A DNA stretch of 64,000 nt from Streptomyces sp. L2. Its GTDB lineage: Bacteria > Actinomycetota > Actinomycetes > Streptomycetales > Streptomycetaceae. The notes below the pieces were generated by a model that had not been told where the DNA came from, searched no databases, and was given only the letters and a program-made list of their open reading frames with translations. The first letter of the stretch is position 1. Every line of letters begins with the position of its first letter. Below, piece by piece: positions 17,400-42,822 of this stretch. The stretch spans positions 682,001-746,000 of the forward strand of contig NZ_QBDT01000001.1 of NCBI RefSeq assembly GCF_004124325.1. The letters run 5' to 3'. The position numbers and the translations under genes were made by a program.

Positions 17400-17410
<11 letters not shown>
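17207..17410 (+). CDS. Excisionase-like helix-turn-helix protein, start unclear
   Basis: A short frame encodes YTTSDLAACRRVDASTLRR followed by VTVSERVVMYSALDVEEWLR, the winged-helix pattern of small excisionases. It ends by overlapping the integrase start, as xis and int do in pSAM2-like elements. The frame stays open upstream to 17,081, but those residues look unrelated and no ATG or GTG with a ribosome site lies at the expected start, so the 5' end is probably damaged. Excisionase bends attachment DNA to favour excision; here it has no functional partner. Confidence 0.5.
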
Positions 17411-18634
<1,224 letters not shown>

Positions 18635-27608: not shown

Positions 27609-28415
27609 GTGACGGGGACCGAGCAGGCCGCCCAGGGCATCGACACCACCCGGCCGCACCCGGCCCGGGTCTACGACTGGTACCTCGGCGGCAAGGACAA
27701 CTACCCCGTCGACGAGCAACTCGCCCGCCGCATCACGGAGATAGACGGCGGTGCGCCGCGTGCCGCCCGCGCCAACCGGGCGTTCATGCGCCGGGCCACC
27801 CGCGCGCTGGCCGAGGAGGCCGGAATCCGGCAGTTCCTGGACATCGGCACCGGCATCCCGACCGAGCCGAACCTGCACCAGATCGCCCAGTCCGTCGCCC
27901 CGGACGCCCGCGTGGTCTACGTCGACAACGACCCCATCGTGCTGGCCCACGCGGGCGCGCTGCTGCGCGGCACCCCCGAGGGCGTGACCGAGTACGTGCA
28001 GGCCGACGCCCGCGACCCTCGCTCCATCCTCGACCAGGCCGGCGCGATCCTGGACCTGGACCGGCCCGTCGCCCTGTCGCTGATCGCCCTGCTGCACTTC
28101 CTCGCCGACGAGGACGGCGCCCACGACGTGGTGCGCACCCTGGTCGACGCCCTGGCGCCGGGCAGCTGCCTGGTGCTGTCGATGATGACGGCCGACTTCG
28201 AACCGGAGAACGTACGGCGGGGCATCACCGCGTACGCGCAGGGCGGGGTGACGCTGGTGGCCCGCTCGCAGGACGAGGTGGGCGCCTTCTTCACCGGCCT
28301 CGACCTGCTGGAGCCGGGGATCGTGTCCGTCGCGGACTGGCGGCCCGAGGAGGCCCCCGAGGGCGACGGACCGATCTCCCTGTACGGCGCGGTCGGCGTC
28401 AAGACGGCCCGGTGA
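27609..28415 (+). CDS. DUF574-family SAM-dependent methyltransferase
   Basis: A 268-residue methyltransferase of the S-adenosylmethionine-binding family abundant in Streptomyces. PARVYDWYLGGKDNYPVDEQ near residue 17 is the family signature, FLDIGTGIPTEPNLHQIAQ near 78 binds SAM, and VVYVDNDPIVLAHAGALL near 100 carries the acidic ribose-binding residue. The substrate is unknown for the whole family. It starts with GTG behind GGAGGAGCA. Its 3' end is separated by only six bases from the 3' fragment of the split HAD gene on the other strand. Confidence 0.87.
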   Translation: MTGTEQAAQGIDTTRPHPARVYDWYLGGKDNYPVDEQLARRITEIDGGAPRAARANRAFMRRATRALAEEAGIRQFLDIGTGIPTEPNLHQIAQSVAPDARVVYVDNDPIVLAHAGALLRGTPEGVTEYVQADARDPRSILDQAGAILDLDRPVALSLIALLHFLADEDGAHDVVRTLVDALAPGSCLVLSMMTADFEPENVRRGITAYAQGGVTLVARSQDEVGAFFTGLDLLEPGIVSVADWRPEEAPEGDGPISLYGAVGVKTAR

Positions 28416-28421
28416 CCGTAG

Positions 28422-28597
28422 CTACAGCGGTATATGCGGTATATCGAGGACCCGGGCGACGGTCCGCAGCACCCCGTTGTCGTTGTTGGACGGCGCGAGG
28501 TGCCGGGCCCGCCGGACCACCTCCGGGTGGGCGTTGGCCATGGCGAACGACCAGTCCGCCGCGTCGAGCATCTCCAGGTCGTTGAGGTAGTCGCCGA
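28422..28597 (-). pseudogene. 3' fragment of HAD-family phosphatase, split by element
   Basis: Read on the reverse strand, this fragment encodes GDYLNDLEMLDAADW, AMANAHPEVVRRARHLAPS and a stop at 28,422-28,424. It is the missing end of the Cof-type HAD phosphatase whose 5' part lies at 37,700-38,412. GDxxND is HAD motif IV and AMANA a conserved Cof feature. The 9.1-kb element separates the two parts, so this piece has no start and is presumably not translated. Confidence 0.9.
28582..28597. other. Left attachment site (attL)
   Basis: TTGAGGTAGTCGCCGA occurs here and again at 37,700. The two copies bound the integrated element and lie at exactly the point where the HAD reading frame is interrupted. 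On the reverse strand the core encodes the GDYL of HAD motif IV. Confidence 0.92.
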
Positions 28598-28610
28598 CTA
28601 TGAGTGCATG

Positions 28611-28623
28611 AGCGCTGCGCTCA
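28611..28623. repeat. Putative integrase arm-type site, left
   Basis: AGCGCTGCGCTCA, 13 bases, lies 14 bases inside attL and recurs in the same orientation at 37,624 near attR. A 7-bp inverted repeat (TTGCAGG/CCTGCAA, 28,633-28,665) follows. Paired direct repeats near both ends are what arm-binding sites of tyrosine integrases look like. Confidence 0.55.
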
Positions 28624-28698
28624 CCAGGATCTTTGCAGGTACCTGGGGAAACGCAGAGCCTGCAATATCTCTGACTACCCAGAGCGGAGGCTCATGTC

Positions 28699-28911
28699 AT
28701 GACTGTGACCAAGGCCACTCACCGCCGGACCCTCCCGAACGATCTGATCACCGCACTCCGCCGCTCCGCCCGTGTCGCGGTCGACGCCGAAGAACTTGAG
28801 GCCGTCGCGGGCGTCGTCGGAGCCTTCCGGTCCCAGTCGACCGACCGCCGGGAACGCCGACAGTACGACCGCCTCCTCCGCCGGGTATGGCGGCAGATGG
28901 ACGCACGTTAG
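28699..28911 (+). CDS. Small hypothetical protein of the element
   Basis: A 70-residue basic protein (MTVTKATHRRTLPNDLITAL) with a predicted helical middle (VAVDAEELEAVAGVVGAF) and an Arg-rich tail (RRERRQYDRLLRRVWRQM). GGAGGCTC lies ten bases before the start. It is the first gene inside attL. The charge and helices would suit nucleic-acid binding, but no family is recognised. Confidence 0.5.
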   Translation: MTVTKATHRRTLPNDLITALRRSARVAVDAEELEAVAGVVGAFRSQSTDRRERRQYDRLLRRVWRQMDAR

Positions 28912-29079
28912 CCCCCCTTGCCCTGACCCGTCGGCGTGGTCACGTCCTTGAGGAGCGGGGGCGTACCGGAAGGCCACTATCTGGGACCCAGAAGCCGCTG
29001 GGCGGATGTTCCCGCAGGCAACCCGACCGGTAACAACGCCGACAGGCGGGCAGGGGCTCGTAGCGTTACGGTCCCCTCT

Positions 29080-29373
29080 ATGAACGAATACACAGACGTG
29101 AGACTGACCGCAGAGAGCGATGCGGACTGGGCAGCTGCTTACCGGGTCTTACAGTCGCTCTCTGACACATATGAGCCCGACAGGCCGACCAACAGGGGGT
29201 TTGTCTGGTACAACTTCCGGGGCAGCCAGCATAGGGAGGTGCCCGTCACACTGGGGGTCTGCCTTGCGGGGGACGTTGAGGCGCACGTTCGAGCGAGCCT
29301 TGCCAGCCTGGCCCCACCGCACCTAGTCGATCAGTTCAGGGTCGAAGTAGAAGACGCCAATCCTCTGATCTAG
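29080..29373 (+). CDS. Hypothetical protein of the element
   Basis: A 97-residue protein starting MNEYTDVRLTAESDADWAAA, with a middle FVWYNFRGSQHREVPVTLGV and an acidic C-terminus. No ribosome site precedes the ATG, so the mRNA may be leaderless, which is common in Streptomyces. No family is recognised. It lies between the first small gene and the regulator gene that converges on it. Confidence 0.5.
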   Translation: MNEYTDVRLTAESDADWAAAYRVLQSLSDTYEPDRPTNRGFVWYNFRGSQHREVPVTLGVCLAGDVEAHVRASLASLAPPHLVDQFRVEVEDANPLI

Positions 29374-29432
29374 ATCCCCACCCCTCTGGGACCCTCCGTG
29401 CGGGGCATTCCCAGGGGGCTCTTTGCATGCTG

Positions 29433-30179
29433 TCAGGGGCTCCATGTCCTACCCCTGCCCCACAATTCCTCTGCGTGGTCGCGGAACCGGTCAAACATGC
29501 CGCCGTCGCCGTGCCGCCGCAGGTGCAGAAGGGGCGAGTCGTGTCCGACCAGCCGTGCAAGGTGCGGTGTCACCAGGGCGTCATCATCGAAGCGGAACAC
29601 AGACAGGCTGACATGGTTCACAGCGTCCTCAGGCGCGCTGTAGCGGACTTCCACCCCGTCCAAACGGGCTAGGTGCTCAAGCGTGATGCGGATGCGCGTG
29701 GAGACGCTCAGGGCGGTGTCCTCGATGACTTCCCGCTGCCTGGTCACCTCCCCCTCAGGGTCGCCGAGCAGGAAGCGCACAGACACGCCATCCTGGATCT
29801 TTCGGGCAAGGGTCTGGGTGAACGCCGGGATCGACGTGAAGAAAAAGTAGTTGGTGTACCCGGCTAGGAAGATCTCCCGCGCGGCACCCTCGGTCAGGCC
29901 CGACCACACGGAGCCGGGGCAGGCGGACCGGTAGGGGTAGGTCCGGGCGATCTCCACGTCACCGCCGGTCTTGATTCGTTCCTTCACGGCCTTGGGCCAG
30001 AGCATCTCTTCGTTGACTCCCAACGCCTCTGCGGCGTCGTGACGGTTCCGAGCGTGCGGCACTAGGTCTTCGTCCGCCAGCCACCGTTCCACGGTCTTGC
30101 CGGTCACACCGATGTGTGCCGCGAGGCGTCTGGGCGGCACGCCGGCCGCCTCCATAGCCGTTCGTAAGCCGACGTTCAA
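29433..30179 (-). CDS. HTH regulator with C-terminal DUF5919-like domain
   Basis: A 248-residue protein. The N-terminal helix-turn-helix reads AMEAAGVPPRRLAAHIGVTG and TVERWLADEDLVPHARNR. The remainder contains REIFLAGYTNYFFFTSIPAF, VSVRFLLGDPEGEVTRQREV and VNHVSLSVFRFDDDALVTPH, the pattern of DUF5919, itself reminiscent of phospholipase-D-like folds. I chose a TTG start at 30,179 because AGGAGG lies four bases upstream and homologues begin with this NVGLR segment; the frame continues upstream without character. It is divergent from two small genes and probably represses or senses for the element. Confidence 0.65.
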   Translation of the reverse strand: MNVGLRTAMEAAGVPPRRLAAHIGVTGKTVERWLADEDLVPHARNRHDAAEALGVNEEMLWPKAVKERIKTGGDVEIARTYPYRSACPGSVWSGLTEGAAREIFLAGYTNYFFFTSIPAFTQTLARKIQDGVSVRFLLGDPEGEVTRQREVIEDTALSVSTRIRITLEHLARLDGVEVRYSAPEDAVNHVSLSVFRFDDDALVTPHLARLVGHDSPLLHLRRHGDGGMFDRFRDHAEELWGRGRTWSP

Positions 30180-30287
30180 CACCCCTCCTACGGACGTTTG
30201 GGCGTTTTCCAAGGTACCGCCCAGAGGGATCAACTGTCCTTGTGACGCAGGCACATACGACTGTCCGGGGGAGCCAGGATCAAACCC

Positions 30288-30503
30288 ATGGGAGCCAAGA
30301 GACAGACCACGCCCGCCAACCCCGTCTTCCTGTCGCATGCAGTCCATGAGGAGTGGCTACTCGACTGCACCCCGGCAGCGGGCTGCCGGGTGTGCGCGGC
30401 CAACTGGAAGCAGCTCGAAGCGGCCCGGGACGCCGGGAACATTGATCAGGCGGCCAGGCACGCGTCAGAGATCCGTGATCATCGTGGGGGTGGGCACTCG
30501 TGA
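30288..30503 (+). CDS. Small hypothetical protein, first of a coupled pair
   Basis: A 71-residue protein (MGAKRQTTPANPVFLSHAVH) with two Cys in AAGCRVCAANWKQLEAARDA and a His-rich tail. It is divergent from the regulator gene across 108 bases, and its stop overlaps the next gene's GTG (GTGA). Small genes of this style often lie beside HTH regulators in Streptomyces genomes; function unknown. Confidence 0.55.
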   Translation: MGAKRQTTPANPVFLSHAVHEEWLLDCTPAAGCRVCAANWKQLEAARDAGNIDQAARHASEIRDHRGGGHS

Positions 30504-30706
30504 TCCGCTACGTCCGGCACAAGATCTGCGGGCACCCCGATATTCCGCCCGTCCATAACGCGAAATGCCAAGGATGCAGCTGGACGGCGCCGGAAGGCAG
30601 AGCCGCTGACGTCGATATCGACTGCATGAAACACACGGGGCTTTCCGGGCACACCCAATTCGAGCGAACAGCCCGATGGTCGACGTTCGTGGTGCGCGCA
30701 GAATAG
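30500..30706 (+). CDS. Small Cys/His protein, second of the pair
   Basis: A 68-residue protein (VIRYVRHKICGHPDIPPVHN) with CQGCSWTAPEGRAADVD and CMKHTGLSGHTQFERT. The spaced Cys-x2-Cys and Cys/His residues suggest a small zinc-binding fold; the layout resembles DUF7848-type proteins. Translationally coupled to the preceding gene. Role unknown. Confidence 0.55.
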   Translation: MIRYVRHKICGHPDIPPVHNAKCQGCSWTAPEGRAADVDIDCMKHTGLSGHTQFERTARWSTFVVRAE

Positions 30707-30755
30707 GCGGCCAATAACGGGGGAATTGCCGCCTGAATTCACGGCCAGGGGCGCC

Positions 30756-30808
30756 CGATAAACGGCCGTCGCGGCGTCGATAAAGGGAGTCCGGTCGGCG
30801 ATAAAGGC
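30756..30808. repeat. Iteron-like direct repeats
   Basis: CGATAAACGG, CGATAAAGGG and CGATAAAGGC start at 30,756, 30,778 and 30,799, that is every two helical turns, followed by the palindrome CCGATATCGG at 30,808. Same-face spacing suggests a protein-binding array. Confidence 0.6.
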
Positions 30809-31166
30809 CGATATCGGGGGGCTCGGCGGGCGAGTGACGGCCATCGGGCTCGCTTCAGGGGATACCAAGGCGTGGCGGCGCTCTGACCTTGGGTCCCTGG
30901 GGGTCGATACCGCCTCTGACCTGCATCTTTGCGCCTTCGACCCATGATCATCCGTGGAATCCTGGGTGCGGGGAGAAAATAGGTCCCTAGGGCGTGGGGT
31001 CGCAGAGGGCCGCCTTGCAAGGCCGACAACAGCCCCCCTACCCCATTACCTAATTCCATTCCGCGTCGAGGTAATTCCTTTTCATCGGCTCCACCTTTCC
31101 TGAATTCCAAACTGCTTCGGGCGTCGTGAATTCAGCTCGCACTGCGGTCGACACGAAAGGCTTTAT

Positions 31167-31222
31167 CGACATATTCAATGCAATTCACGTCACGACTTCA
31201 GCGAAACGCTTTGAATATGTCG
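31167..31222. repeat. 12-bp perfect inverted repeat
   Basis: CGACATATTCAA (31,167-31,178) and TTGAATATGTCG (31,211-31,222) are perfect inverted copies with a 32-base spacer. TCGACAT recurs at 31,243. It lies in the A/T-rich part of the non-coding region, left of the capsid/protease operon. Confidence 0.8.
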
Positions 31223-31318
31223 AGCAGAGGCAATCCATTTCATCGACATTGCTTGCGATAACGTCGATGCGCGAACGGCGATAAACCGCGAATGTGTCAT
31301 TGTATGTAGCAACGACAA

Positions 31319-31385
31319 AGCCTGTGTGATCACGATGGACGTAACCACACAGGCTGTCGGTCAGGCGAGGATCACGGCGCCTGAC
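31319..31385 (-). terminator. Double hairpin after the capsid operon
   Basis: AGCCTGTGTG (31,319-31,328) pairs with CACACAGGCT (31,346-31,355), and GTCAGGC (31,360-31,366) with GCCTGAC (31,379-31,385). Both lie just past the protease stop on the reverse strand, as expected of transcription termination, though the U-tract is weak. Confidence 0.65.
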
Positions 31386-31395
31386 TTCTCACGCG

Positions 31396-32037
31396 TCACG
31401 AGAGGGCTGCGCGCAGCGTGAGGGTTCGGAGGTAGCTAGCGCGGGCACCGGGGCCCATGACCTGCCGCTGCTCGGCAGAGCGCACACCTACGGTGGTAGT
31501 GGTGTACGCAGGTTGCAGAACGGGACCACACTCGAAGAGGTCGACTCGCTGAAGACTGCGAGTCAACTCGTCGCCACGGTGCAGAGCACGCATAGCCGTG
31601 TCGGTGTCCAGTGTGCGACCGTTCGCGTCTTGCCACGTCTCAGAGATCACACGGAACCGAAAGCTCTGCCCACCGATGGCGCCTGCTGCCACGGCCTCAC
31701 GAACGGCCTGGGCGGCGTCGCTCTCGAAGAGCCGGGCTTCCGTCCACAGGCCCACCGCGTCTTCCCGCGCGACTTGCATGGCCGCGATCGGGAGCGTGCC
31801 CACGCGAGGATCGGTACCGTGGGCGTACTGGACGAGGGGCGTGCGTCGGCTGAGGCTGTCCGTAAACGCTCCGGGCATGATCTGCTCCCGGAAGCTGACA
31901 CCCATCTCGCGGATAATGGTGGGCTCATGGAACCTCGCGGCATACCCGACGAGAGTCCGCCCATCACCGGACGGGTTAGTGATGTCCCCGGAGGTGCGGA
32001 GTTCCACACCCCCGGGCCTGAAGGCCGCAGTCATCAC
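31396..32037 (-). CDS. HK97-family prohead protease
   Basis: A 213-residue capsid-maturation protease. TLVGYAARFHEPTIIREMG and FREQIMPGAF near the N-terminus, LVQYAHGTDPRVGTLP near residue 70 with the catalytic-type His, and IGGQSFRFRVISETW near residue 120 with the Ser nucleophile match the U35 family. It trims capsid N-terminal regions during shell maturation. The GTG start overlaps the capsid gene stop (GTGATG, with an ATG one codon later). It follows the capsid gene, whereas in HK97-type phages it usually precedes it. Confidence 0.87.
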   Translation of the reverse strand: MMTAAFRPGGVELRTSGDITNPSGDGRTLVGYAARFHEPTIIREMGVSFREQIMPGAFTDSLSRRTPLVQYAHGTDPRVGTLPIAAMQVAREDAVGLWTEARLFESDAAQAVREAVAAGAIGGQSFRFRVISETWQDANGRTLDTDTAMRALHRGDELTRSLQRVDLFECGPVLQPAYTTTTVGVRSAEQRQVMGPGARASYLRTLTLRAALS

Positions 32038-33467
32038 GCAGTCGTGGGGACGTCGAGCAGGCGGAAGGCGTTCGTCGTCATCACATTGGAGCCGGTACGC
32101 AGCCAGAGCAGCGCTCCCCGCTCACCAGTCGGACGCCCATGCGATCCCATCAAGTTCGGGATGAACTCCAGTTGCGCCCCGACGCGATCGGCGATCACGA
32201 ACTGCTGAAAGTCGCCGACGACCAACTGATAGTTGCTCTCGGTGACGCTTGCGCTCAGCGAGCCGTCCATGTCGCTGATCTCGTTCATGGGTCGGTTGAG
32301 GAGTCGCTGTGGTGACTGGGCCAACTCCGGGAACTTCAGAGCCCCGTTCGTGGTCTCCATCTGCCTTAGGCCGTTGATCACGCTCAGGTTCGCGGCCCAC
32401 TGTGATCTTGCCTGGAAGCGCGGCGGCAGTGCCGCCTGGAGCGTGAACGGGTCCGCCGAGGACAGGGCCTCAGTGCCGCCACCTTGGATGACGCTAGAGC
32501 CATCGGAGACGAGGGCCGTGACGAGGCCGGTCGGCTGAGCGACGCCGGAGCCGGTGGTGTATGCGGTTGCCATCAACCGGTCTGCCGCATCCACCAAAAT
32601 CATTTGAAGCGACTGGATGAAGCCGAGAGCGTCCCCGCCGACCTCAAACGAGTACGGGGTGAAGGCTGACGCCTTGTACACCGGCACAGCGGGCGACGCG
32701 AGCGCCGGAGACGCATCGGCGGCCTCTACTCCCTCACCCAGCCACTCGGCCGTAGTGCCAGCGCTTGTGACGCCCCTCCACTCACTGCTGACCGTTTGGA
32801 CGACACGTGCGATGCGGCGCAGCGGGTTGGTACTACCGTCTGAAGTCAAGATCACCGTGGGGTCCAACGAAAGTGGCAGAAGGTAACCGCCTGACGACCC
32901 GGTGTTCTCGGCCATCGCCCGCTGCTCGCTGGCCACGGCGCGGACCTGGCGGAAAGCTTCATGTTCCTCCTGGCTCCAGTCCAAGTGGCCGCGTTCCGGA
33001 TCTCCGGCCAGCGCCGCGAATGCCCGCTCGTAGGCCGGATTACCGGTCGCGATAGCCCAGCGGGCAGCCCAGGACTGCGCGGCCGGTGAACCCTTGCTGA
33101 CGAGCCCCTCGACCTTCTCGGCGGCCTGGGAGGGAAGGATCCCGCCGGACGTCATCCGCTCCAGCGTCCGCATGGCGTTGTCCCGCATCGTCGGGGCCGT
33201 CGTCCGGGTGGCGGTGAGGCCGTCAGTCCCGCGCTCCACGTTGCCACCGCCACCGGCGGCAAGGGCCCTGATGCGCTCCACGGCGGCCTGGCCGGCCTTC
33301 TCGCGGGCAGTCAGCGCGTCCCACTCCTCCTGCGCCTCAGCGTCGAGTTCCCGGCCTTCAAACCGCTCGTGAAGGGCTTCCAGTGCGTCGCGGCATTCGG
33401 CCAACGTGAAACTGGCGATGTCGCGCTCTTCGCCGTCACCTTCGTAGGTCTTCTTACGTCGTGTCAT
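32034..33467 (-). CDS. HK97-type phage major capsid protein
   Basis: A 477-residue capsid subunit. Residues 1-115 are charged and helical (FTLAECRDALEALHERF, ERIRALAAGGGG), like the delta/scaffold region removed by the prohead protease. The shell domain starts around AMAENTGSSGGYLLPLSLD and includes VVQTVSSEWRGVTSAGTTAEWL, AFTPYSFEVGGDALGFIQSL and DAADRLMATAYTTGSG. It ends in LWLRTGSNVMTTNAFRLL, characteristic of the HK97 fold. First gene of a two-gene late operon behind a nested inverted repeat. Encapsulin is unlikely because of the adjoining protease, integrase and att sites. Confidence 0.9.
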   Translation of the reverse strand: MTRRKKTYEGDGEERDIASFTLAECRDALEALHERFEGRELDAEAQEEWDALTAREKAGQAAVERIRALAAGGGGNVERGTDGLTATRTTAPTMRDNAMRTLERMTSGGILPSQAAEKVEGLVSKGSPAAQSWAARWAIATGNPAYERAFAALAGDPERGHLDWSQEEHEAFRQVRAVASEQRAMAENTGSSGGYLLPLSLDPTVILTSDGSTNPLRRIARVVQTVSSEWRGVTSAGTTAEWLGEGVEAADASPALASPAVPVYKASAFTPYSFEVGGDALGFIQSLQMILVDAADRLMATAYTTGSGVAQPTGLVTALVSDGSSVIQGGGTEALSSADPFTLQAALPPRFQARSQWAANLSVINGLRQMETTNGALKFPELAQSPQRLLNRPMNEISDMDGSLSASVTESNYQLVVGDFQQFVIADRVGAQLEFIPNLMGSHGRPTGERGALLWLRTGSNVMTTNAFRLLDVPTTA

Positions 33468-33471
33468 GGTA

Positions 33472-33480
33472 TTCAGTTGT
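33472..33480 (-). promoter_or_regulatory. Shared leader motif, capsid gene copy
   Basis: On the sense strand ACAACTGAA ends four bases before the T-ACC-ATG of the capsid start. The same nine bases, or a one-base variant, occur before four other genes of the element (34,094, 34,548, 35,993, 36,342). Confidence 0.6.
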
Positions 33481-33504
33481 TCCTTCGAAGCTAAGGGGAA
33501 TTCC

Positions 33505-33546
33505 GAAGATCGTTCTTGGTAACCTGGGTTAACGTCGGCGATCTTC
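33505..33546. promoter_or_regulatory. Nested inverted repeats upstream of capsid gene
   Basis: GAAGATCG (33,505-33,512) and CGATCTTC (33,539-33,546) flank an inner imperfect palindrome GGTAACC-TG-GGTTAAC (33,518-33,533). A further GGGTTAC half-site lies at 33,554. Placed 38-80 bases before the capsid start, it could be an operator or an mRNA hairpin controlling capsid expression. Confidence 0.55.
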
Positions 33547-33702
33547 CGGACATGGGTTACTAGAGCCCTCAGACCGAAGGGGGCGACTACTGGCCCTGAC
33601 TCGACGATCCACAGTTCCGACGGCTTTCAGGGGGCCCCTAGGCCCTGCTTTCAGCCGAAAGCGTCGAAACTCGGCGTTCTATTTTCTAGCTTACCATAAA
33701 AT

Positions 33703-33734
33703 AAAGGGCCGCCCCATGATCAGGACGGCCCTTT
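33703..33734. terminator. Intrinsic terminator between early and late genes
   Basis: AAAGGGCCG and CGGCCCTTT form a perfect 9-bp stem with a 14-base loop, flanked by T-rich DNA on both sides, so it can work in both directions. It lies nine bases past the stop of the last small gene and separates that operon from the capsid operon. Confidence 0.8.
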
Positions 33735-33742
33735 TCTGGTTT

Positions 33743-34078
33743 TTACTGCCAGTCGTCGGGGATTTGGTTCGGCACTTCAGTGCTTATCCACCGAGCCCCG
33801 GGGAACTCGGTCACGTCGTCATCCATGATCCACTCGTAGGGGGCGGAAGCGATGTCCTCATAATCGACGTGGAAGAACACGACGGCGCCTTCCCTGCGCA
33901 TACGCACAGCGAGTTCACCGGCCGCATCCCGCGCCCTCAGGGAAGCCTTCCAGTCGTCCTCAGGCAGATAGGCCATGGCGGCGCAGGGGACGTACCGCAG
34001 CTTCAGCCGTGCGAGTTTGCTGAGGTACTCAAGCTTAGGCATTCCGTCGTCACCGTACTCGATAGCGTCGTCGTTCAC
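33743..34078 (-). CDS. Hypothetical protein of the element, early operon
   Basis: A 111-residue acidic protein starting at a GTG (VNDDAIEYGDDGMPKLEYLS), with GAGAGG eight bases upstream and the leader motif before that. The middle reads YLPEDDWKASLRARDAAGEL and the end FHVDYEDIASAPYEWIMDDD. The GTG overlaps the previous stop (GTGA). No family is recognised. Small acidic proteins next to capsid genes in satellites can be assembly or packaging modulators; that role is only a possibility. Confidence 0.6.
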   Translation of the reverse strand: MNDDAIEYGDDGMPKLEYLSKLARLKLRYVPCAAMAYLPEDDWKASLRARDAAGELAVRMRREGAVVFFHVDYEDIASAPYEWIMDDDVTEFPGARWISTEVPNQIPDDWQ

Positions 34079-34272
34079 TTTGTGCCGCCTCTCTTCAGTT
34101 GTGTAGGCCGCCAGGGACACGCCCTGGCATGGGTGCCGGACAGCTCCACCTCTTCGCACACCAGGCAGTGCCGGGGTCTGGGAGCTTTCCTTCGGGCTTT
34201 CTGGGTCCGGCGGTATTCCGACCAGACGTCGACTTGAAGCAGGTCGGCGAGGGGGTCAGTTTCTGAGCCCAC
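34075..34272 (-). CDS. Small zinc-finger-like protein of the element
   Basis: A 65-residue basic protein from a GTG that shares one base with the preceding stop codon. It has a basic patch (YRRTQKARRKAPRPR) and then HCLVCEEVELSGTHARACPW, giving Cys-x2-Cys and His-x3-Cys pairs that could bind zinc. Overlaps on both sides show tight translational coupling. No family is recognised; a DNA-binding or nuclease-related role is conceivable. Confidence 0.55.
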   Translation of the reverse strand: MGSETDPLADLLQVDVWSEYRRTQKARRKAPRPRHCLVCEEVELSGTHARACPWRPTQLKRGGTK

Positions 34273-34532
34273 TAGAGGTAGTCCTCGCCGGGCGCATCCT
34301 GGGGCTGATACTTCCCGTCTGGTGTTTCGGCGAATAGCCATTCCCTGTCGATGGCGCCGAAGGTTTCCCCGCCGTAGGACATGCTGATCGTGTCGCCTTC
34401 GTGGCGGAAGATCACGAAGTTTTGGCCGGCCATGGCCCCTGCGACGCGGAGCCGGTAGCGGTCATCTTCGGAGAGGTTCAGCCATGCCGAGTCGATAGCG
34501 GCTTGGATCTTGATGCGCTGTTCTGCGTTCAT
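34272..34532 (-). CDS. Hypothetical protein of the element
   Basis: An 86-residue protein (MNAEQRIKIQAAIDSAWLNL) with a central VAGAMAGQNFVIFRHEGDTI and C-terminal WLFAETPDGKYQPQDAPGED. GGAGAAGAG precedes the ATG and the leader motif ACAACTGAAC lies immediately upstream of that. It is separated from the ATPase gene by about 215 bases and is coupled to the two genes downstream. No family is recognised. Confidence 0.6.
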   Translation of the reverse strand: MNAEQRIKIQAAIDSAWLNLSEDDRYRLRVAGAMAGQNFVIFRHEGDTISMSYGGETFGAIDREWLFAETPDGKYQPQDAPGEDYL

Positions 34533-34547
34533 GATCTCTTCTCCTTG

Positions 34548-34556
34548 TTCAGTTGT
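34548..34556 (-). promoter_or_regulatory. Shared leader motif, small-gene operon copy
   Basis: Sense-strand ACAACTGAA (within ACAACTGAACAAGGAGAAG) lies 15 bases before the start of the 86-residue protein. The copy at 34,094-34,102 has the same 15-base gap to its own gene's start. Confidence 0.6.
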
Positions 34557-34747
34557 TGAGCAGGTCGCCGGGGACGGACCCTGAGCCGCGACCAGTCCGG
34601 CGCCCCCCTCCACCCAAGGGCTTTCATCTTCGCTTTCGGTGAAGCTGTCGGGTGAGGGTGTCGGGTGTCGGGAACCTAAAGGTTTCCCGACGCCGACAAC
34701 ACCCCCTCACAGGTGTTCTCCCGACATGTCGCGACACTGCGACACCC

Positions 34748-35971
34748 TTACTGACCTGCGTCGTTGTCGGCGAGGAGGATCCACCTCTTCTGCTGACCGG
34801 GTCCGGTATCCCCAACCGCGTCCGCGACACCCCTTCTGGCCATTTTGTTGAGGGCCTCAGAGATCGTTGAGCGCGTCAGCCCGTGGCCGTTCTTCTCCTT
34901 CACCGCGTCGCCGATCTCCTTTACCGACATGGCCCGGTCAGCGCTCAAGGCGTCGAGGATCTTCCGGTCTGCGGGGCTCAGCCCGTCATCAGGGCCGGAG
35001 CCGGAAGGCGTCTCGCTCACGCTGATCGAGTAGTGCATGGCGGAGCTGAGATCGTCCGGGTTGTCGGCCCGTACGCGGCGGATGAACGTCACATCCTCGT
35101 CGGCGACCTCATCTCCCGCGAACGACCACTTGAGGGCGGCCGTCGTCTCCTTGGTGACGGGGTCGGTGCTCTTACTGACCGCGGCCACGGAGATGAGGAA
35201 GCGTCCCCATTCGTTAGGGCCTGCTCCGGAACTGCGGTCGTGGCCTTTGCCCGAACCGGTCTTATTCCAGTGATGGCTGATGAGTAGCGTCGTCCCGGCG
35301 GCCTGCGTGATCTTCTGGACGCCGTTGAGGAGTGCGCCCATGGAGATGAGGTCGCTGCCTGTGGCGCCGCTCGCGGACAGGTACAGCGGGTCGACGATCA
35401 CGAGTGCTGGTTTCCGCTCCGTGATGGCTTGCCGGATTAGTTCCAGATCACCCTGGTTTCCCAGCTTGGGCGCCGAGAACTCCGGGAAGATCGGGAGGGC
35501 GTTCACCTGCTCGCGGCTGAGTCCTTTGGCCGCGCCGATGGCGTGGATCCGGCGGAGTAGTTTCCGCTTGCCGCCCTCGCCATAGAAGATGATCACGGGG
35601 CCGCTCGTGTCGGTCGGGTAGTGACCGAGCCATGCCCCGCCGGATGCGCAGGAGACTGCCGCGTCGAGGACTGCCCACGTTTTGCCGGCCTTCTTCTCAG
35701 CGGAAAGCATCCCGTAGTCACCAGCCGAGATGACGGGCCGGAACAGCCATTGCGGGTCGCCTGCCGCAGCCACCTCGACGGCGACGTCAGCCAGTGACTG
35801 GACTGCGAACGCCGGGCCCCTCTCCTGTACGCGAAGGTACTGCACCACGTTGAGGACTTGGTCGAACTGGGCGCACTCGTCGGGAGACAACTCCCTGCGG
35901 ATCTCATCGGCCGCGCCCGGGTCATCTGCACCTCGTTCAGCCAGGTAATGCAGGATGTTCGGTGTTATCAT
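34748..35971 (-). CDS. RepA-like AAA ATPase with winged helix
   Basis: A 407-residue protein. Residues 83-98 contain AGDYGMLSAEKKAGKTWAVL (Walker A, AEKKAGKT at 91-98), near residue 190 KPALVIVDPLYLSASGATG is Walker B, and LLISHHWNKTGSGKGHD follows. This is the RecA-type fold of RSF1010 RepA-like hexameric helicases (AAA_25). A C-terminal winged helix (DRKILDALSADRAMSVKEIG, LTRSTISEALNKMARRGV) probably binds DNA. It is likely the replication helicase of the excised element. I chose MITPNILHYL; an upstream start is possible. The leader motif lies 21 bases before the ATG. Confidence 0.82.
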   Translation of the reverse strand: MITPNILHYLAERGADDPGAADEIRRELSPDECAQFDQVLNVVQYLRVQERGPAFAVQSLADVAVEVAAAGDPQWLFRPVISAGDYGMLSAEKKAGKTWAVLDAAVSCASGGAWLGHYPTDTSGPVIIFYGEGGKRKLLRRIHAIGAAKGLSREQVNALPIFPEFSAPKLGNQGDLELIRQAITERKPALVIVDPLYLSASGATGSDLISMGALLNGVQKITQAAGTTLLISHHWNKTGSGKGHDRSSGAGPNEWGRFLISVAAVSKSTDPVTKETTAALKWSFAGDEVADEDVTFIRRVRADNPDDLSSAMHYSISVSETPSGSGPDDGLSPADRKILDALSADRAMSVKEIGDAVKEKNGHGLTRSTISEALNKMARRGVADAVGDTGPGQQKRWILLADNDAGQ

Positions 35972-35992
35972 GTTAGGTAGCAACTCTCTCTG

Positions 35993-36001
35993 TTCAGTTG
36001 T
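35993..36001 (-). promoter_or_regulatory. Shared leader motif, ATPase copy
   Basis: Sense-strand ACAACTGAA, continuing CAGAGAGAG, 21 bases before the ATPase start. Part of the five-copy family described in the findings. Confidence 0.6.
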
Positions 36002-36045
36002 AAGAGCGATGCCCTCGACGTGGCAGGTCGGGGGCATTCGTCTGT

Positions 36046-36312
36046 CTAGGCGGCCTCTGTGGAACGGCGCTTCGAGCGCGCGACGCTGGACGCGAAGGCG
36101 AGACGCTGGAAGTAAGCTTTGCGGGCGCTCTCGGCGCGCTTGGCGCGCTCCTGAGGGGGCAGGACACCCTCAGGGTCAACCTCCCGCTCGAAGCGGCTCA
36201 GAAACGCTTCGCGGGCGGGGGCGGTGTGGGCAGTGCGGTCGGCTGTCTTGGACCACTGGACATTCGCGGCGATCGACGCGCGGAGGGACCTCTGCTCGGG
36301 GGTGAGGGCCAC
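36046..36312 (-). CDS. Small Arg-rich helical protein of the element
   Basis: An 88-residue protein from GTG at 36,312 (VALTPEQRSLRASIAANVQW), with GGAGG six bases upstream. It is largely helical: AREAFLSRFEREVDPEGVLP and RAKRAESARKAYFQRLAFAS. Similar short proteins occur in actinobacterial plasmids and prophages, usually beside replication or regulatory genes, without known function. A variant leader motif (ACAATTGAA) lies 29 bases upstream. Divergent from the next gene. Confidence 0.65.
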   Translation of the reverse strand: MALTPEQRSLRASIAANVQWSKTADRTAHTAPAREAFLSRFEREVDPEGVLPPQERAKRAESARKAYFQRLAFASSVARSKRRSTEAA

Positions 36313-36402
36313 TAGGGGCCTCCATTCGTGTTCTGTTGATGTTCAATTGTTTTGCGGATCTTTCAGGCTGTGCGCCCGGGTATCCCATTGTGTCCGGTTA
36401 GC

Positions 36403-36417
36403 GTAGCGTTTGGCTAC
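36403..36417. promoter_or_regulatory. Inverted repeat in divergent promoter region
   Basis: GTAGC-GTTTG-GCTAC lies in the 149-base region between two divergent genes (36,312 reverse and 36,462 forward). It is a candidate operator for the switch between the replication genes and the gene facing the integrase. Confidence 0.4.
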
Positions 36418-36461
36418 TGTCTAGTAGGAAATGAGCTTGAGGTCACACGAGGGAGATCGAC

Positions 36462-36677
36462 ATGGAAATCAGGATCATGGGGCCAGGTTCGGGCGAATTC
36501 TGGACCCTCTCGCACAGGTACGCCGTGCTCGCCTATGGGTCACTGGTTGGCGACAGGGAGGGATGGCGACTCTCATGGTTCACGTCGCAAGGACTCCGCG
36601 ATGAGTTCATCGGCTGCGGCGCGGATGAGCAGGCTAAGGCGTTAGAGCTTGCGCGGGAGTACCTACCCGAGGACTAG
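36462..36677 (+). CDS. Small hypothetical protein facing the integrase
   Basis: A 71-residue protein (MEIRIMGPGSGEFWTLSHRY) with GGGAGA before the ATG, and DEQAKALELAREYLPED at its end. The stop codon shares the CTAG palindrome with the integrase stop, so the two genes converge with a four-base overlap. A gene opposing the integrase could limit its expression by antisense transcription. An excisionase role is possible by size, but no helix-turn-helix is evident. Confidence 0.55.
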   Translation: MEIRIMGPGSGEFWTLSHRYAVLAYGSLVGDREGWRLSWFTSQGLRDEFIGCGADEQAKALELAREYLPED

Positions 36678-37588
36678 AGGTCGCCGAGATTGAGTTTCCG
36701 AGCCTCTTCTACGGCGCGGCGCTCGGAAGAGTGCTTTGTATACCGGTCGAGCATGTCGCGCCGTGTCCACCCGGCAACACTCATGAGTCCTTGCTCGGAT
36801 CCGCCCGCCGCGAGCCATCGTGTAGCTGCCGTGTGCCGCAGCTTGTGCGGTGAGAAGCCGTCTATTCCTGCGACCTCTGACCGGCGGACCAAGGCGCCGT
36901 AGAGGGCCGGGTACTCGAAGGTGCGGCCACGGTCGCCAAGCCACAGATCCGGCAGGTGCGCCAGGCGGTGTTTCTTGCGCAGGGAGAGGTAGCGGTCTAC
37001 CGCTGCGGCCGTCTGTGCGCTGAACGGCACTACCCGGCCCTTGCCGCCCTTGCCCCGTTCGATGGTCGCCTCAAATGTCTTGAGGTCGACGTCAGCCAGG
37101 GTCATGGCCACGACTTCACCGGCGCGGGCGCCTGTCTCGATCATGAAACGAACGATCGCTTCGTCCCGCCGGGCGCGGAAGTCCTTTTTATTCTTAGGGT
37201 TTTGGCACGCCTTGATCAAGTCCCGGCATTGATCATCAGACAGTGCCGGAACAACCTTCTGATCAACCTTCGGGGGCTTAAGACCGTCCAGTTTGTCACT
37301 GTCGATCTCACCCTCTTCGGCCAGCCACGCGGAGAAGCGGCGCAACGCCAACTGTCTTGACTTTGCCGTGGTTGCCGCCGCGCCGTCAGCGAGCAGTGAG
37401 GACACGAACGCGTTGGCTGTCGGCCGGTCGAGCAGCGGGGGGCGATCATGAGTCTCGCACCAGCGCAGGAACCCCTTCACGCCGTCGCCATAGACCTTGA
37501 TCGTCTGCTGAGACTTCCGCTCTGCCGCGAGATGCAGTAGCCATGAGTTGAGGAGGCCGGATATGTCCGGGTCGTCTTGCTTCGACAT
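36674..37588 (-). CDS. Tyrosine integrase of the element
   Basis: A 304-residue site-specific recombinase. Residues about 10-95 are the core-binding SAM-like domain (SWLLHLAAERKSQQTIKVYG). The catalytic domain has Arg in IETGARAGEVVAMTLADVDL, Lys in RGKGGKGRVVPFSAQ, His-x2-Arg in FSPHKLRHTAATRWLAAG, Trp in VAGWTRRDMLDRY and the nucleophile Tyr in that same segment. All residues needed for strand exchange are present. It lies 111 bases inside attR and is presumably responsible for integration into the HAD gene. Confidence 0.92.
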   Translation of the reverse strand: MSKQDDPDISGLLNSWLLHLAAERKSQQTIKVYGDGVKGFLRWCETHDRPPLLDRPTANAFVSSLLADGAAATTAKSRQLALRRFSAWLAEEGEIDSDKLDGLKPPKVDQKVVPALSDDQCRDLIKACQNPKNKKDFRARRDEAIVRFMIETGARAGEVVAMTLADVDLKTFEATIERGKGGKGRVVPFSAQTAAAVDRYLSLRKKHRLAHLPDLWLGDRGRTFEYPALYGALVRRSEVAGIDGFSPHKLRHTAATRWLAAGGSEQGLMSVAGWTRRDMLDRYTKHSSERRAVEEARKLNLGDL

Positions 37589-37623
37589 GGCCGCAGTCTA
37601 GAGGCTGGATACCTACGACTAGA

Positions 37624-37636
37624 AGCGCTGCGCTCA
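37624..37636. repeat. Putative integrase arm-type site, right
   Basis: AGCGCTGCGCTCA, identical to the copy at 28,611 and in the same orientation, 63 bases inside attR. Confidence 0.55.
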
Positions 37637-37683
37637 AGAATAAAGTTGCCCCTATCCGTAAATTAGCAGGTCAGAGGCATCGA

Positions 37684-38412
37684 TCAGGGCTTGACATATT
37701 TGAGGTAGTCGCCGAACACCATGGTCTGCGCGGGCGTGATGCCCAGCTCCCGCTGGAGGCCGCGCAGCGCGGCACCCTTATGCGCGGTGCGGTTCATGAC
37801 GTCAACCCAGTGCTCCCCGGAGACGACGACCTGGTGGGTGGCCGCGAACCCGGCCAGGGCGGGGGCGGTGGTGTCCGCGGCGGAGCCGAAGTCGAACAGC
37901 GCCACCTTGATCACGTCGTCGTCGACGGCGGTGACGTCCTCGACGATCCGGTGCTCGACGTAGTACTTGCGGACCTCGGCCAGGAACGGTTCGTCGGTCC
38001 GCTCCACGTAGGCCGCCCGCTTGCCGCACACCACGGCGCCGGCGTCCACTCCGTCCGCGACCAGCCGTCGTACCGTCCGCGCGACCTCGGCGGCGACCGA
38101 CCTGTCCAGCGGGTCGGAACTCAGCTCCGCGCCGTCGCGCACCACATACGTGCCGTTCTCGGCGATGAACACCATGCCGTCGGCCACCTCCGCGAACTGC
38201 CGGGCCAGCGTGGCGTACTGCCGGCCGCTCGCCGGGCTGAACAGCACACCGCGCCGGCGCAGTTCCGCGAGCATCGGCCACAGTCCGTCGGGGATCCGCT
38301 TGGCGTCGTCCAGCAGCGTGCCGTCCATGTCGGTGACGACGAGCCGGATGTCCGCCGCGCCGGCCGGCGGGCAGGGGGTGTCGATCAGGGGCGCGGGCGG
38401 CGTGGCGGGCAT
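37684..38412 (-). pseudogene. 5' fragment of Cof-type HAD phosphatase, target of the element
   Basis: From the ATG at 38,412 the frame encodes HAD motif I (LVVTDMDGTLLDDAKRIPDG), motif II in VLFSPASGRQYATLA, ENGTYVVRDGAELSSDPL and GAALRGLQRELGITPAQTMV. Motif IV should read GDYLNDxxM, but at the att core it becomes GDYLKYVKP and stops after six element-derived residues. The remaining 58 residues are stranded at 28,422-28,597. Without the second Asp and the C-terminus the Mg2+ site is incomplete, so the phosphatase should be inactive while the element is integrated. Precise excision would restore about 295 residues. Confidence 0.92.
37700..37715. other. Right attachment site (attR)
   Basis: Second copy of TTGAGGTAGTCGCCGA. 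To its right the HAD 5' fragment continues without interruption. Confidence 0.92.
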
Positions 38413-42738: not shown

Positions 42739-42748
42739 CTTCACACCG

Positions 42749-42822
<74 letters not shown>

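Follow-up and report, generated by a model that had tools for sequence, protein, structure and literature searches.

The window analysed here is a 64 kb stretch of the 8.07 Mb genome of Streptomyces sp. L2 (G000:C1:682001-746000), and it carries an integrated element of 9,118 bp that encodes an integrase, a RepA-like ATPase, an HK97-type major capsid protein and a prohead protease. The element is probably a complete, capsid-encoding phage satellite of the phiRv1/phiRv2 kind, which would make its own shell and take its portal, packaging motor, tail and lysis functions from a helper phage. Its layout is shared with other actinobacterial loci, which suggests an old family of shell-making parasites that borrow the rest from helper phages.

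Boundaries and principal genes of the element

The element is bounded by exact 16 bp repeats, and its G+C content is about 0.56-0.68, against mostly 0.70-0.79 in the flanks. The attachment (att) repeat splits a HAD-family gene at its GDYLND motif: the N-terminal part terminates in ...MVFGDYL and the C-terminal part carries on with DLEMLDAADWSFAMANAHPEVV. A close homologue of this gene (75-89% identity) was identified in 4 of the 30 other genomes searched, and the frame was unbroken at the site in all four. The principal features are as follows.

28422..28597, minus strand: C-terminal part of the host HAD-family gene; the frame continues across the att repeat
28582..28597: left att repeat, TCGGCGACTACCTCAA (read on the minus strand), the longest exact end-to-end match, 16 bp
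31396..32034, minus strand: prohead serine protease (S78; PF04586, E 1.5e-22)
32034..33467, minus strand: HK97-type major capsid protein, 477 amino acids (aa) (PF05065, E 1.2e-32; TIGR01554, E 3.2e-38), in the portal-less group
33743..34042, minus strand: second p86-family protein, 99 aa, adjoining the capsid gene (p86 profile, E 9.2e-9, outside the training set)
34272..34532, minus strand: p86, an acidic protein of 86 aa and the first p86-family member (profile and leave-one-out tests; isoelectric point (pI) 4.4)
34748..36037, minus strand: RepA-like AAA_25 ATPase, a putative replication protein (PF13481, E 1.1e-25)
36674..37588, minus strand: tyrosine integrase, 304 aa (PF00589, E 2.8e-25)
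37700..37715: right att repeat, the identical 16 bp; host gene unbroken in four relatives
37700..38412, minus strand: N-terminal part of the interrupted host HAD-family gene (89% identity to the unbroken G016 homologue)

These assignments bear out a preliminary description of this DNA, which had listed an intact integrase, a RepA-like ATPase and an HK97-type capsid protein with its protease, and had placed exact att sites at the ends of a 28582-37715 element. The same description concluded that the element was no decayed scrap; with its large genes intact, its att sites exact and its layout conserved in relatives, a random scrap is indeed unlikely.

Portal, terminase, tail and lysis genes

In the element frames scanned (ten frames with Pfam, and PHROGs and NCBIfam), no match to a portal, large terminase subunit (TerL), tail or lysis family was as good as E 0.1, and head-tail connector families were unmatched in the frames scanned with Pfam and PHROGs. 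Weak matches linked the putative regulator described below to the terminase small subunit (TerS; E 0.13 and 0.18) and a 70 aa frame to a holin family (E 0.18). PF03354 and phrog_2 overlooked TerL beside most portal-bearing capsids, which makes their silence uninformative; a local TerL profile was therefore used, grown together with a local portal profile from three phages. Neither profile, with E values up to 10 allowed, matched a frame of at least 40 aa between positions 28001 and 38500, and the PF04860 portal was not found anywhere in the genome of the strain itself. Tail, lysis and defence genes were also considered among the small frames and rejected, as PHROGs, Pfam and PADLOC gave nothing significant. 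The claim that no portal, large terminase, tail or lysis gene is recognisable has thus held, also for the small frames, where a significant portal, terminase or tail match would have spoken against a satellite. The portal, TerL, tail and lysis genes that together characterize a complete temperate phage were not found in the frames searched.

The single TerL match in this genome (phrog_2, E 3.1e-42) lies 3 Mb away, in a prophage-like region at G000:C1 ~3,772,000-3,807,000 (L114-L116). This region has portal-, capsid- and tape-measure-like genes, judged from their sizes and translations, and is unrelated to the element. It could be a resident helper; no tie to the element was seen.

Relatives of the element and the capsid tree

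The capsid search matched 17 of 392 genomes of the same genus and 15 of 396 genomes of the phylum (own genome included in both counts), as well as 23 of 351 genomes of a family, f3, that we judged to be Mycobacteriaceae-like. Additional capsid loci came from genome_contigs (three loci) and IMG/VR. The closest, full-length capsid match was in G389, and the PF04860 portal is absent from its genome. Same-genus matches with a partial identity of 33-44% (one of 25%) had a portal near the capsid; the weak matches in G179, G073, G022 and G365 were left out. Portal-less capsids occur in 19 genomes; PF04860 was absent from 17 of these and lay on another contig in the remaining two.

A tree of 48 capsids was built after L106 (broken gene) and L025 (odd length) had been dropped. 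One branch, with support of 98/99, separated 18 portal-less rows (the window and 17 loci), the phiRv2 protein, eight database proteins and L110 from all 14 portal-bearing prophages and three phages. Many forks are open inside the portal-less group. One change of portal state is seen when rows of stated portal condition are counted, a count that leaves out L107, L110, the viral rows and the database rows and in which phiRv2 was entered as portal-less, as we take it to be.

Terminase followed the same division. Beside the capsid, the local profiles identified both portal and TerL in 14/14 tabulated portal-bearing loci, and 19/19 loci of the portal-less group lacked both (0/19 with either); these groups were defined by the PF04860 portal, so that TerL is the independent part of the comparison, and L101 and L117 were taken as the same element. 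L046, L048 and L070, which stand outside this table, also have portal and TerL. When every locus was counted whose capsid scored over 150 bits and which had no less than 2.5 kb of upstream sequence, a portal or TerL was present in 0 of 19 loci of the portal-less type and in 80 of 84 of the other type (the exceptions being L107, L158, L174 and L185); types were assigned by profiles trained on part of the loci, and the independent ones are the IMG/VR loci on the portal-bearing side and L110 and the duplicate L117 on the portal-less side.

Integrase, replication protein and capsid are kept together in loci from Micromonospora (L020), Nocardia (L022) and the same genus (L036). The replication protein itself is exchangeable: among the ten that were scanned, AAA_25 occurs by itself in four and together with Prim-Pol in two, Prim-Pol by itself in two and DUF3631 in one, and that of L022 had nothing above its cut-off. 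The protease is present in the window and in 11 of 18 relatives.

Att-like repeats were sought in 15 of the 18 portal-less loci and were found in eight, with spans of 8,608-10,855 bp. The lengths given are those of the longest repeat found at each locus.

L036: repeat of 22 bp, span 10,753 bp
L063: repeat of 13 bp, span 10,855 bp
L099: repeat of 21 bp, span 9,998 bp
L020: repeat of 46 bp, span 9,714 bp, overlapping tRNA-Met
L064: repeat of 47 bp, span 8,608 bp, overlapping tRNA-Lys
L021: repeat of 44 bp, span 9,304 bp, overlapping tRNA-Trp
L109: repeat of 26 bp, span 9,109 bp, overlapping a tmRNA gene
L098: repeat of 28 bp, span 9,910 bp

The L098 repeat resembles the RNase P RNA gene. Among the seven loci without a repeat, five have a frame that reads as serine-recombinase-like (L100, L102, L104, L105 and L022), L066 ends at a contig end, and the seventh is L101. 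A narrow size range at many sites would be the pattern of a packaged element.

The repeats of L036, L063 and L099 sit at the 3' end of a primary sigma-factor gene, as read from translations, and the integrases of these loci belong to the same clade as that of the window. GCGACTACCT is common to the window repeat and to the repeats of all three (in the 13 bp repeat of L063, from its C to the last base). In view of this shared att core, we considered a jump of the window element to a secondary site; yet the full 16 bp suits the HAD gene.

The p86 family

Two proteins of the element belong to a family that we designated p86. The p86 profile was built from proteins that occupy the same slot just ahead of capsid genes, and left-out members scored 10.0-40.7 bits. 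Members outside the training set were picked up in L103 (E 4.6e-12), in L104 (E 8.9e-10) and in the window (the 99 aa protein at 33743-34042), and each of the three lies immediately ahead of a protease or capsid gene. The best score in portal-bearing loci was 9.8 bits (L108). The family is represented in the window, by two copies, and in 10 of 18 portal-less relatives. All 16 members have a pI of 4.1-4.8; none of the 16 had a significant match in PHROGs (best E 0.016), and PDB held no convincing relative (best E 0.035).

A widened profile was searched against the 351 genomes of family f3. Twelve matches had E<1e-4, all of them ahead of protease and capsid genes, and five weaker ones reached up to 0.01; eight of the 12 were already in the profile, and the independent matches are the remaining four (L226-L229). 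At these loci the order is p86, protease and then a different PF05065 capsid, 41-50% identical among the four and about 23% identical to that of the window in the two that align. Three of the four gave an integrase-profile match, three had repeats 8.0-9.4 kb apart, and neither the portal nor the TerL profile matched anything within 18 kb. Because L226-L229 carry a different capsid, p86 accompanies head genes across two capsid lineages. In the L226 capsid the N-terminal end is locally nearer to the window group than the shell domain is, with 44% similarity to L109 over 59 residues.

The slot of p86 is held by a P27 small terminase in L098 and L065, and an HNH gene adjoins the capsid gene in L064 and L101. 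On the strength of these neighbours we would guess that p86 is a packaging or assembly protein, perhaps an adaptor that ties the shell to the portal-motor complex of a helper; sequence and position are the basis of this guess.

Other genes and the non-coding region

The remaining features within the element are listed below. Coding frames were picked by codon-position G+C; longer antisense frames exist and were not counted as coding.

28699..28911, plus strand: protein of 70 aa adjoining the left att (codon-position G+C; best PHROGs E 0.18, holin family)
28936..29373, plus strand: possible gene of 145 aa (open frame; no PHROG)
29433..30347, minus strand: regulator with weak helix-turn-helix (HTH) and DUF5919-like regions (HTH_31, E 2.1e-4; DUF5919, E 0.031; both below cut-off)
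30288..30503, plus strand: possible gene of 71 aa (codon-position G+C; no PHROG)
30500..30706, plus strand: possible gene of 68 aa (codon-position G+C; no significant PHROG)
30756..31285: non-coding region rich in repeats, candidate origin or packaging site
34075..34341, minus strand: 88 aa protein with a Cys-rich stretch (phrog_13335, E 6e-4)
36046..36312, minus strand: p88 (phrog_2842, E 2e-12)
36462..36677, plus strand: possible gene of 71 aa converging on the integrase gene (codon-position G+C only; no significant Pfam or PHROGs family)

Every frame above 150 aa that was taken as coding has an assignment, that of the regulator being weak. A regulator had been proposed in the preliminary description; an HTH-like frame is present at 29433-30347, and its HTH_31 match stays below the cut-off. 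The C-terminus of the ATPase also has weak HTH matches (HTH_20, E 5.6e-4, below cut-off).

The protease has the motifs YAHG, GGQSF and FECGPV, which we take to hold the catalytic H, S and E. In the window the capsid gene precedes the protease gene, the reverse of the usual order; the opposite order is present in phage L112 and in the relative L063.

The integrase is 60% identical to that of L036 and 62% identical to that of Streptomyces phage Kromp (28317-29237, L230), so this integrase type is common to the element and to a full phage. CGACTACCT was not found in 6.9 kb of Kromp around the related integrase. Among 18 portal-less loci, the window and eight comparison loci, p88 was present only in the window, L036, L020, L063 and L099. 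Since it was seen only with one clade of tyrosine integrases, p88 probably belongs to an integration or early module.

The non-coding stretch at 30.8-31.3 kb is a candidate origin or packaging site on sequence features. CGATAAA/TTTATCG occurs five times in the 64 kb window, each time at a separate place within 30756-31285, and positions 31100-31400 fold with a z-score of -4.7, better than all 100 shuffles. GAATTCA (five counts) and CGATATC (four counts) are confined to 30.6-31.1 kb and were not used; both are near-palindromic, and counting on both strands inflates the number of places.

The element lies between two tRNA-Pro (GGG) genes of identical sequence, at window positions 18560-18634 and 42748-42822 and 24 kb from each other, and a frame beside the first (17400-18392) has an integrase-like look. 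The pair was rejected as the ends of a larger element; the exact match extends just 4 bp past the 75 bp gene.

Weighing the explanations

Several points weigh against a satellite that makes its own shell. The element is known from its sequence, and no virion has been seen and no helper named. A shell lacking its own portal could take in DNA by the usual route only if a helper's portal fitted it. PF04860 is blind to some portals, and the other prophage-like region of the same genome escaped it. Neither TerS nor HNH was found in the window element (PF05119 was negative genome-wide; HNH was sought in the ten Pfam-scanned frames). No protease was seen in 7 of 18 relatives (L036, L020, L021, L064, L065, L066 and L106), although in two of these, L065 and L066, the contig breaks off near the capsid. 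Eight of 18 relatives show no p86, and two left-out p86 members, at 10.0 and 11.2 bits, score no better than the best background frame (11.0 bits). L107, on the phage side of the tree, is portal-less too, which implies at least one further change of portal state.

The L107 locus (L107:3416-14970) has an integrase, an ATPase-like frame, a protease, a phage-type capsid and a tape-measure-like frame of 1,344 aa, and no portal or TerL was found in it; the locus can be read as a recent capture or a remnant. Capsid genes are broken in L106 (L106:9430-10493) and L109 (L109:9061-10496), so some copies decay.

Decay of a prophage that has lost its portal, terminase and tail genes could in principle produce such a locus, and the broken capsids of L106 and L109 and the tape-measure-like frame retained in L107 would fit it, as would the many remnant prophages that the available text of PMC10023795 describes in actinobacteria. 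We nevertheless consider it very unlikely for the window element, whose att sites are exact and whose large genes are intact, and whose capsid lies to one side of a branch with good support. Two further observations argue in the same direction: the spans measure 8.6-10.9 kb although the integration sites differ, and integrase, replication protein and capsid are retained jointly in Micromonospora, Nocardia and the same genus. The preliminary description would have been undercut had the relatives been fragments of one larger prophage with genes deleted at random; the capsid tree, the portal and TerL counts and the att-like repeats spoke against this.

The element's capsid protein might instead mix into the shell of a helper and shrink it, as Ccm of the cos-type Staphylococcus aureus pathogenicity island (SaPI) SaPIbov5 does at pentamer places, with the helper supplying the rest. 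The portion of PMC8569155 that was available describes SaPIbov5 as having a capsid homologue able to redirect helper assembly, the window capsid has a long region before its Pfam shell domain (which starts at residue 193), and the seven relatives in which no protease was seen would fit use of a helper's protease. However, the window and 11 of 18 relatives have their own protease, whereas cleavage of Ccm by the helper protease is assumed in that portion of PMC8569155, and no helper capsid is close: the best in 50,697 phage records has 70% cover at 41% identity or 94% cover at 33% identity. We regard a mixed shell as unlikely, if less so than decay.

An anti-phage island, whose capsid and protease would disturb assembly of an invading phage and so protect the host, transfer being secondary, is about as improbable as decay. 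A capsid homologue can act in this way, as Ccm strongly lowers helper titre in the available text of PMC8569155, but the best PADLOC match among ten element frames scanned (integrase, capsid and protease excluded) was E 1.7e-3, and the element retains an integrase and a replication protein. The least credible explanation is a domesticated encapsulin-like shell on an integrative element that packages no DNA. Encapsulins are HK97-type shells that come without protease or packaging genes and with a cargo gene, and a capsid without portal or motor could form a closed shell. Against this, the window has a prohead protease (cargo genes were not sought), and this protease and the TerS (L098, L065) or HNH (L064, L101) genes beside the capsid in relatives suggest DNA packaging.

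We therefore favour a capsid-encoding satellite, for which the following cycle may be envisaged. Infection by a helper phage, or induction of one, would lead the element to excise and to replicate by means of its RepA-like ATPase, with the repeats at 30.8-31.3 kb as a possible starting point. Its own capsid protein and protease would build and mature the shell, which would then be filled and finished using the portal, terminase, tail and lysis functions of the helper. More tentatively, and with the odds somewhat against it, the relatives may form an old and distinct satellite family, spread across Actinomycetota and one Chloroflexota bin, that for most of its existence has kept a shell and neither portal nor motor, and in which acidic p86 docks a shell of either capsid lineage onto the portal-motor of unrelated helpers. 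A conserved lineage with a shell and often a protease, and with neither portal nor motor, would imply that shells can be matched to foreign portals and would make shell-portal compatibility testable. It would likewise recast phiRv1 and phiRv2, long named prophage-like, as members of a wide satellite family. In the available text of PMC8569155, tailed-phage heads are generally assumed to assemble on the portal, and SaPIbov5 procapsids could form without one.

Comparison with known systems

Phage-inducible chromosomal islands (PICIs) in general have an integrase, a specific att site and a replication gene, and adjoining the integrase a regulator that is controlled by the helper. The window element has an integrase, a specific att site and a putative replication gene, the replication role of its ATPase being inferred; its putative HTH regulator, a weak match, stands at 29433-30347, the far end from the integrase.

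The papers compared here are cited from those portions of their text that were available. The likeness to capsid-forming PICIs drawn in the preliminary description does not extend to membership. Like the window element, these islands have their own capsid and protease, but according to PMC10690885 they also encode a portal, connectors, both terminase subunits and HNH and need tails only, whereas portal, TerL, TerS and HNH were not found in the window element. MulchRoom and MiniFlayer, satellites of Streptomyces phages, have their own capsid gene as well and, unlike the window element, encode a portal, both terminase subunits, a scaffold and an adaptor (PMC10690885). In cos-type SaPIs with Ccm (SaPIbov5, PMC8569155) the satellite has a capsid homologue and particles can hold the portal of the helper; the window element differs in having its own prohead protease, and host and capsid lineage differ too.

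Capsid and protease homologues of the window pair are encoded by the Rhodococcus/Gordonia phages REQ1, Shagrat and ThankyouJordi and by 14 prophage loci, which have portal and TerL near the capsid and lie on the opposite side of the capsid-tree branch. PDB 9lw6 matches capsid profile A1 at E 3.6e-115 and sides with the phages (508.9 against 372.1 bits for the portal-less group); no paper naming it was found in our literature search.

The closest likeness is to phiRv1/phiRv2 and the Mycobacterium candidate PICIs of PMC10654092, which like the window element are small integrated elements with an integrase and an HK97 capsid. A protein named as a Mycobacterium tuberculosis phiRv2 prophage protein (P0109) falls in the capsid group of the window (E 1.2e-131, 50% identity over 81%), in agreement with the kinship to phiRv2 that had been proposed. 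The element differs from phiRv1, which according to a title in a reference list has a serine integrase, in its tyrosine integrase; its reversed capsid-protease order and its two copies of p86 may also set it apart from the phiRv1/phiRv2 kind. PMC10654092 defines its candidate PICIs by an integrase and a major capsid gene in one small integrated region, both present in the window element, calls phiRv1/phiRv2 PICI-like and, in the portion available, leaves their mobilisation by a helper undecided; in PMC10023795 small actinobacterial elements are supposed to be possible satellites. The earlier view that no element with this layout had been described accordingly went too far as regards the kind. 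A literature search that left most subscription journals and preprints outside found neither a phylum-wide, single portal-less capsid group nor a p86 family described. Mycobacterium candidate PICIs with integrase and capsid are thus already in print, and what is new here is the p86 family ahead of the head genes, whose position before protease and capsid is a marker for finding more such elements.

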